From: Mucilaginibacter segetis
Lineage (GTDB): Bacteria; Bacteroidota; Bacteroidia; Sphingobacteriales; Sphingobacteriaceae
Assembly (NCBI RefSeq): GCF_016522075.1
Contig: NZ_JAEHFW010000002.1
Span: forward strand, 620,001-684,000
DNA: 64,000 nt
Direction of reading: 5' to 3'
Positions 48,177-51,678 of the stretch are shown here, piece by piece (position 1 is the first letter of the stretch; every line of letters begins with the position of its first letter). Below the pieces are notes generated by a model. It saw only the letters and a list, made by a program, of their open reading frames with translations, was not told the DNA's origin and searched no databases. A program made the position numbers and the translations under genes.

Positions 48177-48623
48177 ATGAACGCATATAGTTTTTTTTTA
48201 TATTTTCATTCAGGCTTCAGATATATTGTATTGATCCTGGTATTGCTCGCAATATTCCAATCATTCGCTGGCTGGTTAAGCAAAAAACAATATACAAACG
48301 GTAACAGAAAAATTAATCTGTTTGCCATGATATCGGCTCATACCCAACTTTTATTAGGTATAATATTATACTTTTTAAGCCCGTTTGTGCAATTCACCAG
48401 CACTACTATGAAACAAACTGACACAAGATACTGGACAGTTGAGCATGCCGCCATGATGATATTTGCCATTATACTTATTACAGTTGGGCATAGCCGGTCA
48501 AAAAAAATAATTTTACCTGAGGGTAAACACCGTGCAATCGCCATATTTTACTCACTGGCCTTATTAGTAATTGTTTTGGCTATAGTTCAAAGTCAACGAC
48601 CATTCTTTGGGGTTAGCCATTAA
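48177..48623 (+). CDS. four-helix membrane protein, function unknown
   Basis: 148 residues with four hydrophobic segments. Conserved-looking His residues stand at helix ends (LYFHSGFRYIVLILVLLAI, SAHTQLLLGIILYF, EHAAMMIFAIILITVGHSRS, HRAIAIFYSLALLVI), a pattern like small heme-binding or b-type cytochrome-like membrane proteins. I cannot assign a function. A TATTTTTG box (48140-48147) overlapping the anmK stop could be its promoter. It precedes the trp promoter. Confidence 0.65.
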   Translation: MNAYSFFLYFHSGFRYIVLILVLLAIFQSFAGWLSKKQYTNGNRKINLFAMISAHTQLLLGIILYFLSPFVQFTSTTMKQTDTRYWTVEHAAMMIFAIILITVGHSRSKKIILPEGKHRAIAIFYSLALLVIVLAIVQSQRPFFGVSH

Positions 48624-48638
48624 AAACTTCATAAAAAA

Positions 48639-48668
48639 TTTGTCAATTCAAATTTCTTTATATTTTTG
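48639..48668 (+). promoter_or_regulatory. trp operon promoter
   Basis: TTTG (48639-48642), an 18-bp spacer and TATTTTTG (48661-48668) match the Bacteroidota -33/-7 consensus. The predicted transcription start at about 48674-48676 falls 3-5 bases before the leader peptide ATG, so the leader ORF would have almost no 5' untranslated region. Confidence 0.78.
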
Positions 48669-48678
48669 CTCAAATATC

Positions 48679-48738
48679 ATGATCAAAAACAACCATAACA
48701 CCAATTGGTGGCACCAAATAATTTTGGTAGCCGGATAG
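48679..48738 (+). CDS. trpL: trp operon leader peptide
   Basis: A 19-codon ORF reading MIKNNHNTNWWHQIILVAG with a TAG at 48736-48738. The tandem Trp codons at residues 10-11 (48706-48711) are the hallmark of trp leader peptides. It lies immediately after a good promoter and before a terminator and trpE. The second Trp codon overlaps the 5' strand of the leader hairpin. The peptide is expected to sense charged tRNA-Trp through ribosome pausing. Confidence 0.93.
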   Translation: MIKNNHNTNWWHQIILVAG

Positions 48739-48812
48739 TTTTTGATATGTATACTAATCAAATGTAAACCTATATTTGAAACCCGGCGAACGCTCAATTC
48801 GCCGGGTTTTTT
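48706..48812 (+). promoter_or_regulatory. tryptophan operon attenuator (alternative hairpins)
   Basis: Hairpin 1:2 is GGCACCAAA (48710-48718) with TTTGGT-A-GCC (48723-48732), loop TAAT, bulged A. The next bases give GCCGG (48730-48734), which pairs with CCGGC (48783-48787) of the terminator 5' arm; GTTT (48738-48741) and AAAC (48779-48782) extend it. Hairpin 3:4 is the terminator. A ribosome stalled on the Trp codons covers strand 1, frees strand 2 and disarms the terminator. One that reaches the stop codon lets the terminator form. The pairing is visible; the mechanism follows the standard model. Confidence 0.9.
48781..48812 (+). terminator. intrinsic terminator of the trp leader
   Basis: ACCCGGCGAA (48781-48790) and TTCGCCGGGT (48798-48807) form a perfect 10-bp stem with a seven-base loop, then six T residues to 48812. 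It lies 25 bases before the trpE ATG. Confidence 0.93.
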
Positions 48813-48836
48813 GTTTTAACACTCCTGATATAAAAA

Positions 48837-50246
48837 ATGAAGAAATATAAAATTATAACTACACATAAAAAGCTGCTTGCCGATACTACAACACCGGTGA
48901 GTATTTACCTTCGCCTGCGCGATGTTTTTCCGAATTCATTACTGCTGGAAAGTTCAGACTACCATAGCAGGGAAAATAGTATGAGTTATGTTTGCTGTGC
49001 TCCTTTTAGCGGTATTATATTAAATGACGATCGGTTAGTAAAAAAATTACCGGATGGTACCGAAGACGTAAGCGAACCGGGAACCTTTGAACTCACCGAA
49101 GAGCTAAACAAGTTTTTAGATTTTTTTGAGGCTGATGATACGGCATCAAAGATCATATCAAATGGCCTGTTCGGTTATTTTACACATGAAGCAGTTGAAC
49201 ATTTTGAAACCATCAGACTAAAGAATAATATAGATAATCTCAGAAAAATACCCGTAATGCAATATCATATCTACAGCTATATTATAGCAATAGATCATTT
49301 TAAAAATGAGTTGCATCTGTTTCATAACCAAGTTGAAGGCGTACACCAAACCAATGGTTTGGAGAAAATGGAATACCTGATCAAAAACAAAAATTTTCCG
49401 GAGTATAGTTTTCAAAGTAACGATGAAGAACAGTCCAATTTAACCAACGAGGAATTTATCGCCATAGTTGAAAAGATGAAGCAGCACATTTTTCGTGGTG
49501 ATGTTTTCCAGATAGTTCCGTCAAGAGCCTTTTCGCGTCAATTTTTAGGAGATGAATTTAATGTTTATCGTGCTTTACGTTCCATCAATCCATCTCCCTA
49601 TTTGTTTTATTTCGATTACGGAGATTTCAGGATATTCGGTTCTTCGCCTGAGGCTCAGATCACTATAAAAAACAATGTGGCCAGTATATTTCCCATTGCG
49701 GGTACATTTAAAAGGAGTGGCGACGATGAAAAGGATGCCGAGATTGCACGCAACCTCGAAAATGATCCAAAGGAATCGGCAGAGCATGTTATGCTGGTTG
49801 ATTTAGCACGAAACGATTTAAGCAGGCATTGTGAGCAGGTGGAAGTTAAAGCCTTTAAAGAGGTGCAGTATTACTCCCATCTCATTCACCTGGTATCGCA
49901 TGTGAGTGGCAAATTGCGCCCCGGGGTTTCTTCATTTAAAATAGTAGCGGATACATACCCGGCAGGAACACTTAGTGGTGCCCCCAAATACCGTGCAATG
50001 GAAATAATAGATGAGAATGAAAAAAGCAAACGTAGCTTTTATAGCGGAGCTATTGGTTATTTAGGTTTTAACGGAGATTTTAACCACGCTATTATGATAC
50101 GGTCCTTTCTGAGTAAAAATAATACCCTCCATTATCAGGCAGGAGCGGGCATAGTTTCTGGCTCAGTTGCGGAAAACGAGCTAAAGGAGGTAGATAATAA
50201 AATAGCCGCATTGAGAAACGCCATTGATTTGGCCGAATCACTTTAA
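48837..50246 (+). CDS. trpE: anthranilate synthase component I
   Basis: 469 residues, chorismate-binding family. It converts chorismate and ammonia (from TrpG) to anthranilate and pyruvate. The Trp feedback pocket is LLESSDYHSRENSMSYV near residues 34-50 (the LLES motif). Catalytic-domain segments include GDVFQIVPSRAFSRQF, RNDLSRHCEQVEVKAF and FKIVADTYPAGTLSGAPKYRA with the catalytic TYPAGTLSGAPK. The start at 48837 directly follows the attenuator. Trp therefore controls both transcription and enzyme activity. Confidence 0.96.
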   Translation: MKKYKIITTHKKLLADTTTPVSIYLRLRDVFPNSLLLESSDYHSRENSMSYVCCAPFSGIILNDDRLVKKLPDGTEDVSEPGTFELTEELNKFLDFFEADDTASKIISNGLFGYFTHEAVEHFETIRLKNNIDNLRKIPVMQYHIYSYIIAIDHFKNELHLFHNQVEGVHQTNGLEKMEYLIKNKNFPEYSFQSNDEEQSNLTNEEFIAIVEKMKQHIFRGDVFQIVPSRAFSRQFLGDEFNVYRALRSINPSPYLFYFDYGDFRIFGSSPEAQITIKNNVASIFPIAGTFKRSGDDEKDAEIARNLENDPKESAEHVMLVDLARNDLSRHCEQVEVKAFKEVQYYSHLIHLVSHVSGKLRPGVSSFKIVADTYPAGTLSGAPKYRAMEIIDENEKSKRSFYSGAIGYLGFNGDFNHAIMIRSFLSKNNTLHYQAGAGIVSGSVAENELKEVDNKIAALRNAIDLAESL

Positions 50247-50284: not shown

Positions 50285-50857
50285 ATGAATAACAAAATAT
50301 TAATAATAGATAATTACGATTCGTTCACCTATAATCTGGTGCATTTGGTTAATGAGATTGGTCTGGAATGTGAAGTTTGGCGCAACGATCGTTTTAACAT
50401 TGATGATGTGTGTGCGTTTCAGCATATCATATTATCGCCCGGCCCGGGAATACCATCGGAAGCTGGCTTGCTGCTTAATGTGATTGAAAAATACGCGCCA
50501 ACAAAAAGTATTTTTGGCGTATGCCTTGGCCAGCAGGCTATTGCCGAGGTATTTGGTGGTAAGCTGTATAATTTAAGTCAGCCGATGCATGGTATTGCCA
50601 CACCAATAAAAGTTACAGATGGTAACGAAAGATTATTTAAAGGACTACCCAATAATTTTAAGGTAGGTCGTTATCACTCCTGGGTAGTTGAGAAAAATTT
50701 GCCTGAAGAGCTTACCGTTACCGCAATTGATGAGGCTGATAATTCTGTTATGGCATTAAGCCATACGCGATATAATGTACGAGGTGTACAATTTCACCCG
50801 GAATCGGTGTTGACGGAGTATGGAAAAGAAATGATGCAAAACTGGTTAAGTGAATAA
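50285..50857 (+). CDS. trpG: anthranilate synthase component II (glutamine amidotransferase)
   Basis: 190 residues from ATG 50285; an upstream TTG frame adds only five residues. Class I amidotransferase: the start ILIIDNYDSFTYNLVH, the nucleophile Cys in IFGVCLGQQAIAEVFGG (about residue 80), and the His-Glu pair in VRGVQFHPESVL. It supplies ammonia to TrpE. It is a TrpG/PabA-type, so it might also serve 4-amino-4-deoxychorismate synthesis, but its place in the trp operon favours anthranilate. It is 38 bases after trpE and 32 before trpC; trpD does not intervene. Confidence 0.95.
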   Translation: MNNKILIIDNYDSFTYNLVHLVNEIGLECEVWRNDRFNIDDVCAFQHIILSPGPGIPSEAGLLLNVIEKYAPTKSIFGVCLGQQAIAEVFGGKLYNLSQPMHGIATPIKVTDGNERLFKGLPNNFKVGRYHSWVVEKNLPEELTVTAIDEADNSVMALSHTRYNVRGVQFHPESVLTEYGKEMMQNWLSE

Positions 50858-50889: not shown

Positions 50890-51678
50890 ATGAATATACT
50901 GGATAAAATTGTCGCTCATAAAAGAAAGGAAGTAGAGCAGGATAAAAGGGAAAGATCTGTTGCCGAATTGGAGAGATCGGATTTTTTTCAAAGGCAAACC
51001 CATTCTTTCAGAGAGTTTTTGCTTGCGCCTGACCGAACAGGTATCATAGCTGAATTTAAACGACGATCACCCTCAAAGGGAATTATAAACGACGCAGTAT
51101 TGGTTAAAAACGTTACTAAAGCCTACGCCGAAGCAGGAGCATCAGCTTTGTCTGTTTTAACTGATAGTAATTTCTTCATGGGTGATAGAGGGGATTTGTT
51201 AGAAGCTCGCGGGGCGAATGATATCCCTGTATTACGTAAGGATTTCATGATAGATGAGTATCAGATAATAGAAGCAAAATCGCTGGGAGCAGATATTGTT
51301 TTATTGATTGCTGCTATACTTAGTCCGACAGAGATAAAAAAAATGGCAGCATTAGCCAAGGCGCTGGGTTTAAATGTATTACTGGAAGTGCACAACCTGG
51401 AAGAACTAAAACGAAGTTTAGATGTTAATTTAGATGCTATTGGCGTTAACAACAGGAACCTGAATGATTTTACGGTATCAGTAGAAACGTCCTATCAATT
51501 AGGAGAATATATTCCTCCGGAATTTCTAAAAATATCAGAAAGCGCGATAAGTAATACAGACACGATTAAACAATTAAAAAAAGCAGGGTTCAACGGTTTT
51601 TTAATAGGTGAAAACTTTATGAAGCAACCGGAGCCCGGCCAGGCAATGAAAGATTTTGTAAAAAAGCTAAATGCCTAA
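50890..51678 (+). CDS. trpC: indole-3-glycerol-phosphate synthase
   Basis: 262 residues, TIM barrel. It closes 1-(2-carboxyphenylamino)-1-deoxyribulose-5-phosphate to indole-3-glycerol phosphate with loss of CO2. Motifs: MNILDKIVAHKRKEVEQ at the start, IIAEFKRRSPSKGII (catalytic Lys and Lys-Gly loop), LRKDFMIDEYQI, LLEVHNLEEL and NNRNLNDF, with a C-terminal ESAISNTDTIKQLK. It is the single-domain form without TrpF. It ends the visible trp operon and hflX follows with its own promoter. trpD, trpF, trpB and trpA are absent from the window. Confidence 0.96.
   Translation: MNILDKIVAHKRKEVEQDKRERSVAELERSDFFQRQTHSFREFLLAPDRTGIIAEFKRRSPSKGIINDAVLVKNVTKAYAEAGASALSVLTDSNFFMGDRGDLLEARGANDIPVLRKDFMIDEYQIIEAKSLGADIVLLIAAILSPTEIKKMAALAKALGLNVLLEVHNLEELKRSLDVNLDAIGVNNRNLNDFTVSVETSYQLGEYIPPEFLKISESAISNTDTIKQLKKAGFNGFLIGENFMKQPEPGQAMKDFVKKLNA

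Follow-up and report, generated by a model that had tools for sequence, protein, structure and literature searches.

The leader and the genes of the trpE locus

We analysed a window of 64,000 nucleotides of the genome of Mucilaginibacter segetis, and all positions given below without a locus name are those of this window. It harbors a trpE-trpG-trpC unit, downstream of which follows hflX, and a short open reading frame (ORF) with two adjacent Trp codons lies directly upstream of trpE. The leader and the genes are arranged as follows:

48679..48738, + strand: leader ORF (trpL) MIKNNHNTNWWHQIILVAG, 19 codons, followed by its stop codon; assigned by sequence, comparison and a chance control
48754..48772, + strand: strongly conserved spacer CUAAUCAAAUGUAAACCUA, from the alignment of 61 leaders
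48837..50246, + strand: trpE, anthranilate synthase component I; under the curated cut-off of the best-matching model, TIGR00564 (1.9e-123)
50285..50857, + strand: trpG; TIGR00566, above cut-off
50890..51678, + strand: trpC; NF001377, above cut-off

The two Trp codons of the leader are codons 10 and 11 (48706-48711), and its stop codon is TAG (48736-48738). The trp genes are split in this organism, as trpD-trpF-trpB are located elsewhere in the same genome (locus L093, 6282-9082), and trpA was not located in it. The best trpE relatives have 83-87% identity and are mostly named Mucilaginibacter. Among the best 80 of them, trpE is followed by trpG-trpC in 76, by trpG only in two and by neither in two, within about 3 kb downstream and less in some loci. 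No match to trpD was found in those 80 stretches.

Conservation of the leader peptide

A leader was defined as an ORF of 8-50 amino acids that starts with ATG, contains Trp-Trp or Trp-Leu-Trp and lies at most 330 nt from trpE. The close set consisted of the best 80 trpE relatives and the window, thus 81 loci from Mucilaginibacter, Pedobacter, neighbours and some MAGs, and since only the best 80 relatives were taken it is biased to close relatives. Both genera belong to the Sphingobacteriaceae, which we take to be their family. The sequence-only reading of this stretch had made its case dependent on a leader that is conserved among relatives, and this is indeed what was found: such an ORF is present in all 81 loci of the close set versus 15 of 1620 dinucleotide shuffles, and the same criterion applied to other 330-nt windows from these loci gave 53 matches in 3136. 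A further set was taken from a draw across the phylum and comprised 44 class relatives, five of the same family and 39 of others, with four weakly matching class genomes excluded. Here, the leader ORF is present in 44/44 versus 11/880 shuffles, and 38 of the 39 class relatives outside the family have three consecutive Trp residues (read by eye).

Several variants were noted in addition. Seven Pedobacter-type leaders before trpE (L072, L075, L076, L078, L080, L148, L149) contain Trp-Leu-Trp and not Trp-Trp, and the terminator also differs in L072, L148 and L149, where it reads GCCCGGCGT...ACGCCGGGC. Pedobacter-type leaders share the part AAACCUAA of the conserved spacer between leader and terminator; no pairing partner for the spacer (48754-48772) was found by eye. 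Outside the class but within the phylum, L197, L198 and L199 have Trp-rich ORFs followed by terminator-like stems 5' of trpE.

Three alternative helices between leader and trpE

The RNA between the second Trp codon and trpE can form three helices, named here 1:2, 2:3 and 3:4:

48710..48732, + strand: hairpin 1:2 (GGC ACCAAA / TTTGGT A GCC); compensatory changes in 61 aligned leaders, fold
48730..48734, + strand: region 2, GCCGG, the putative antiterminator 5' arm, which repeats part of the 3' arm of the terminator
48783..48787, + strand: region 3, CCGGC, the putative 3' arm of the antiterminator, located within the 5' arm of the terminator; pairing tests, model
48780..48808, + strand: predicted intrinsic terminator 3:4 (AACCCGGCGAA / TTCGCCGGGTT) with a T run behind it; fold, compensatory changes

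It had been proposed that hairpin 1:2 begins on the second Trp codon and that GCCGG can pair with CCGGC of the terminator, and both proposals hold: 48710-48712 pair with 48730-48732 and 48713-48718 with 48723-48728, and the partner of region 2 lies at 48783-48787. The terminator with its T run before trpE was likewise found, and its stem, described as 10 bp, has in fact a core of 11 bp (48780-48790 with 48798-48808) and 13 pairs including the outer ones, with an energy of -20.3 kcal/mol (z -5.2).

Covariation in all three helices had been named as a check of the attenuator. In a genus-level alignment of 61 distinct close leaders RNAalifold returned 1:2 and 3:4, and neither 2:3 nor the additional helix 0 that is described below. 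The pairs of 1:2 and 3:4 together have 36 cells that are changed on both sides versus 9.5 +/- 2.1 expected, which was reached in 0/500 shuffles, and slid controls were lower on every measure. As an example, one pair of hairpin 1:2 is A-U in 37 of the 61 leaders, U-A in 18, G-C in one and unpaired in five. The pairing of GCCGG with CCGGC is kept in 98% of the cells among these 61 leaders without variation, and therefore no covariation signal can be obtained there. Farther out it has changed: L063, L064, L066 and L068 have TCGG as region 2 and CCCGACG in the terminator, and L151 has GTCGGG against CCCGAC. No region-2 copy of the terminator longer than 4 nt was found in L069, L071, L073, L074 and L150.

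For helix 2:3 the duplex energy of region 2 with its own terminator was compared to that of species-swapped arms in 5000 permutations, the counts of which are not probabilities, since related sequences share both arms. Permutations as low as the native pairing numbered 0/5000 with 82 representatives of all families and 27/5000 with 33. Within the family of the window there were 0/5000 (45 representatives) and 232/5000 (13), and in the other families 10/5000 (37) and 76/5000 (20). A first test with ten representatives had not been significant (924/5000), whereas the better-sampled tests were. The check therefore succeeded for 1:2 and 3:4, and 2:3 is invariant in the genus and species-matched across families. 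Judged by comparison of these sequences, the three helices are mutually exclusive and conserved, although the simple 2:3 duplex (-11.4 kcal/mol in the window) does not reach -6 kcal/mol in 30 of the 123 leaders compared, many of them Pedobacter-type or from family f4, presumably the Flavobacteriaceae.

A putative second attenuator before trpD and a his leader

The other half of the split pathway is preceded by a putative attenuator as well:

L093 6150-6281: putative second Trp attenuator with the leader MIITNNNWWWLNDIS and its stop codon, containing three consecutive Trp residues, before trpD-trpF-trpB

A -7-like element CATATTTG lies 10 bases 5' of its ATG, and its terminator is GGGTTGCC/GGTAACCC with T6. 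A trpD match was obtained in 96 of 100 genomes, and the best 30 loci of the genus, including that of the own genome, were compared. Leaders with two or three consecutive Trp residues are present within 400 nt of trpD in 28 of these 30; in all 28 the terminator is followed by a run of at least five T, and region 2 (such as GGCAGCC, GGCAACC or GGCAATTCC) is able to pair with GGGTTGCC of the terminator. The two loci in which no leader was detected, L123 and L132, have kept the terminator and the sequence after the leader stop, and their leader may sit beyond the 400-nt cut. A separate observation is that in several members of the genus (L119, L125, L126, L135-L139 and L143-L145) trpD is separated from its attenuator by an insert of C-rich and G-rich sequence, of which GCCCCCCGGCCCCCTGAAGGGGGAG is an example.

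The same genome has a His-rich leader ORF, MKGLTLHHLHLHHHHLVVKR, before hisG with seven His among 20 residues (L195 617-555, minus strand, from about 650616 downwards). Its His codons are followed by a CACCAC/GTGGTG hairpin; no intrinsic terminator was seen by eye after this leader and no Rfam match above cut-off was obtained, and it may act by another mode. No leader was seen by eye before ilvD, a gene named from its translation.

As the his leader lacks a visible intrinsic terminator, other modes of action may exist in this lineage, and the trpE leader might likewise act mainly via translation of trpE or via Rho-dependent termination and not via an intrinsic terminator. We regard this as very improbable for trpE, because 123 of 125 leaders are separated from trpE by a terminator-like stem with a T run when one mismatch is allowed, as are 67 of the 81 loci of the close set by a strict scan, and because the terminator has compensatory changes.

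Promoter and predicted transcription start

The region upstream of the leader contains a match to the promoter described for Flavobacterium johnsoniae:

48639..48642, + strand: -33 promoter element TTTG; sequence
48661..48668, + strand: -7 promoter element TATTTTTG, consensus TAnnTTTG as given in the available part of PMC6847099; sequence
48673..48678, + strand: predicted transcription start at 48673 and 6-nt 5' UTR; from F. johnsoniae promoter spacing

The consensus promoter had been recognized before, just in front of the 19-codon ORF with Trp-Trp, and it can be read as described, with a spacer of 18 nt between TTTG and TATTTTTG and 10 bases between TATTTTTG and the leader ATG. Within the close set of the best 80 trpE relatives and the window, TTTG is found at exactly this spacing in 65 of 81 loci, and TTTG or TTG in 67. 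A strict TAnnTTTG lies 5' of the leader ATG in 80/81, with L052 as the sole exception. In the promoters of F. johnsoniae the G of the -7 box sits at position -5, as far as the accessible text of PMC6847099 goes, and for this reason the start in the window is predicted at 48673 with a 5' UTR of about 6 nt. By the same rule the UTR would have 1-9 nt in 81/81 loci of the close set, and 4 nt in 44 of them. The near-leaderless start that had been claimed thus stands as a prediction from promoter spacing and motif for the whole set, and the claimed distance of only 3-5 bases is replaced by about 6 nt.

A start farther upstream with an ordinary 5' UTR, so that the -7 match is a coincidence, has in its favor that the start in the window is predicted from a motif, and that no -33 box at the 18-nt spacing is present in 14 of the 81 close loci. 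Moreover, a strict -7 box lies at most 45 nt upstream of the leader in 30 of the 39 relatives from other families, and the predicted UTR is 0-6 nt in 14 of these 30 and 12-28 nt in 16. We nevertheless consider such a start improbable, since the G of the -7 box lies 5-13 nt before the leader ATG in all 81 close loci and since the upstream ORF ends only 55 nt before the leader ATG, at 48623.

Very short 5' UTRs appear to be scarce in this phylum, as judged from the portions of the published work that were available: 5' UTRs of less than 10 nt make up 3.7% in Bacteroides thetaiotaomicron, leaderless mRNAs 5.5% in Flavobacterium psychrophilum, and leaders of more than 10 nt 87% of the predicted F. 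johnsoniae transcripts, and Bacteroidota are generally described as lacking Shine-Dalgarno sequences. The near-leaderless layout is not common to all leader peptides of this genome, as the UTR predicted for the his leader is about 26 nt long (counted by hand). A scan for sigma70-type promoters gave no excess over shuffles, which is expected because the promoters of the Bacteroidota differ. Two pattern searches in the own genome were rejected: TTTG-TAnnTTTG-ATG gave 57 matches versus 36 when reversed and is too unspecific for listing other near-leaderless leaders, and TTTG-ATG-TGGTGG gave 131 matches versus 133.

A predicted helix 0 between the leader start and downstream RNA

The fold of the whole leader gives a further helix, here named helix 0, which was absent from the sequence-only account:

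48682..48690, + strand: helix 0 5' arm AUCAAAAAC, leader codons 2-4; fold, co-adaptation tests
48738..48746, + strand: helix 0 3' arm GUUUUUGAU, whose first base is the final one of the leader stop codon; fold, co-adaptation tests

The RNA 48673-48752 has a predicted energy of -22.1 kcal/mol (z -4.0). Helix 0 is compatible with 1:2 and 3:4 and crosses 2:3, so that both cannot form in a simple fold. Its arms are co-adapted: in the 61 leaders the native arms have a mean of -9.50 kcal/mol versus -7.47 kcal/mol for species-swapped arms, and 0/2000 permutations were as low. This holds at identity cut-offs of 85, 80, 75 and 70% (29, 20, 15 and 11 representatives; 0/5000 each). In a different sampling, with all families combined, the counts were 0/5000 for both 82 and 33 representatives, within the family of the window 0/5000 (45) and 19/5000 (13), and in other families 6/5000 (37) and 40/5000 (20). 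Counting in fixed alignment columns gave a less clear result, partly because the arms shift register: the covariation score was reached in 0/500 shuffles and the cells with double change in 2/500, the number of pairs with double change was no better than shuffles (103/500), and paired cells were in slight excess (77.1% versus 75.5%).

Attenuation might be real and helix 0 a by-product of A-rich start codons that meet U-rich sequence downstream, without any regulatory role. The A/U-rich arms would suit this, as would the small excess of paired cells over column shuffles, the negative residuals in no more than 20 of the 33 representatives of all families, and the five of 61 leaders (L020, L038, L045, L053, L058) in which the helix is weaker than -4.5 kcal/mol. 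Yet native arms are better than swapped arms even among the 11 representatives with less than 70% identity, in all 5000 permutations, and base composition alone therefore does not explain helix 0. Furthermore, in some relatives (L012, YVFDQR) the 3' arm is part of the coding sequence, and in others, such as the window, it lies after the leader stop. Altogether a mere by-product appears unlikely to us, though distinctly less so than the two alternatives discussed above, and we proceed with helix 0 as a candidate regulatory element.

Proposed mechanism

We propose that the trpE-trpG-trpC unit is controlled by a ribosome-mediated transcription attenuator, for which the sequence elements, their conservation and the covariation or co-adaptation of the helices argue with a probability of about 0.9. 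The Trp attenuator that had been read from the DNA is thereby supported by the conservation of the leader ORF and the comparison of the helices, and to it are added helix 0, the second attenuator before trpD, and the finding that Bacteroidota have a known element of this kind. What we infer is where transcription starts, that the ribosome stalls, that the unit responds to Trp, and what helix 0 does.

The RNA would begin a few bases upstream of the leader ATG, and loading of a ribosome would follow immediately. If Trp-tRNA is short, the ribosome would stall at Trp codons 10/11 and mask arm 1, so that region 2 (48730-48734) could pair with region 3 (48783-48787), the terminator would come late and trpE would be read. 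If Trp-tRNA is ample, the ribosome would reach the stop codon (48736) and cover region 2, and 3:4 would end transcription. Without a ribosome, or after it has gone, helix 0 and hairpin 1:2 would form together; helix 0 would hide the leader start, and it would favor termination because it crosses 2:3.

A partition-function model with an assumed ribosome footprint of 30 nt, which was masked, and with the RNA out to 48789 is consistent with this scheme. P(2:3) is 1.00 with the ribosome at W10 and 0.99 at W11, and 0 with the ribosome at the stop, where region 2 is masked. With no ribosome P(1:2) is 0.99, P(helix 0) 0.95 and P(2:3) 0. Before region 3 emerges (RNA to 48752) the probability of helix 0 is 0.94 with the ribosome at W11 and 0.17 at W10. 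With the full terminator out every modelled state prefers 3:4, and antitermination must therefore be kinetic. According to the model, the leader would follow the classical logic of attenuation with a start-shielding helix added.

More tentatively, and with somewhat less than even confidence, we suggest that the Sphingobacteriaceae trp attenuator is a timed one-ribosome switch, that both split halves of the trp genes have this layout, and that a similar start-shielding helix is widespread in the trp leaders of the class. With the leader ATG at the tip of the RNA, a ribosome could load directly upon its emergence. Once the transcript is about 74 nt long, helix 0 could close over the start codon, end loading and block the antiterminator, so that transcripts that are uninitiated or have already been read would be committed to termination.

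Attenuation needs early loading of the leader ribosome, in step with the polymerase. A leader start that lies family-wide 1-9 nt from the predicted RNA end suggests that leader translation is separately tuned, since the phylum generally lacks Shine-Dalgarno sequences and has few very short 5' UTRs. Through mutation of the start-shielding helix, self-limiting translation of the leader can be tested clearly, and the layout with two leaders suggests how the split trp pathway stays in step.

Comparison with known leaders

The open-licence literature was searched for a Sphingobacteriaceae trp leader, a near-leaderless leader peptide of Bacteroidota or a second attenuator before trpD, and none was found described there; nor did the search show these features combined, as they are here within one family of Bacteroidota and, for the split pathway, in two copies. 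The logic of 1:2, 2:3 and 3:4 and the tandem Trp codons at positions 10/11 are those of the trp leader of Escherichia coli. An E. coli precedent for a leader start that pairs with downstream RNA was also looked for; the literature search showed none, and no such precedent is drawn upon here. By Rfam models the window remains below the cut-offs of the Trp_leader (RF00513; 17.6 bits, cut-off 41) and of the trpB ncRNA motif (RF04312; weak match at 48680-48818, 25.3 bits, cut-off 59).

A close known relative is the Bacteroid-trp RNA, named 'Bacteroidete tryptophan peptide leader RNA' in Rfam (RF01692). Like the leaders described here it precedes trp genes of Bacteroidota and encodes a Trp-rich leader peptide, in the same position, and its outer stem also encloses the Trp codons. 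In a scan at gathering thresholds of 20 sources, namely 18 trpE loci, L093 and L195, its cut-off was passed by the trpE leaders of nine, all of them from family f4 (nine of ten scanned), and by none of the three scanned sources from the family of the window. The window leader itself gave no match to RF01692 (cut-off 49 bits) at E <= 5, and the trpD leader of the same genome reached 40.6 bits. The nine matches all have three consecutive Trp residues and a predicted UTR of 12-14 nt (seven) or 0-1 nt (two), whereas the window has two Trp residues, a different terminator sequence and a UTR of about 6 nt. Near one f4 trpE locus a Flavo-1 RNA (RF01705, 58.5 bits) was also observed (L166 2921-2993). 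Bacteroid-trp is listed in Table 1 of Weinberg et al. (2010; PMC2864571, available in part), it precedes the trp operon of F. psychrophilum according to the accessible section of PMC6414381, and for the amino-acid operons of this species an excerpt of PMC9723704 considers upstream attenuation by leader peptides likely.

Two systems of other phyla resemble the predicted start of the leader. As described in the available portion of PMC7298713, trpL/trpE(G) of Sinorhizobium meliloti has a leaderless Trp leader peptide, attenuation of trpE and split trp operons. However, its RNA begins at the ATG itself and not, as predicted here, about 6 nt before it, its phylum is unrelated, and trpE(G) is the only one of three trp operons that is attenuated, whereas both split units found here have leaders. 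In ilvBNC of Corynebacterium glutamicum the leader start lies one nt from the RNA start, if the 'start of translation' printed in the part of PMC11857589 at hand is read as that of transcription. The same text describes a hairpin, termed antiantiterminator, by which the leader start is shielded and the terminator allowed to form, which is the role proposed here for helix 0; the differences are the branched-chain amino acids, the other phylum, and the long range of helix 0, inside which hairpin 1:2 lies. Since Bacteroid-trp, S. meliloti and C. glutamicum ilvBNC are known, each ingredient of the proposed attenuator has a precedent, and with RF01692 its kind is already known in Bacteroidota.
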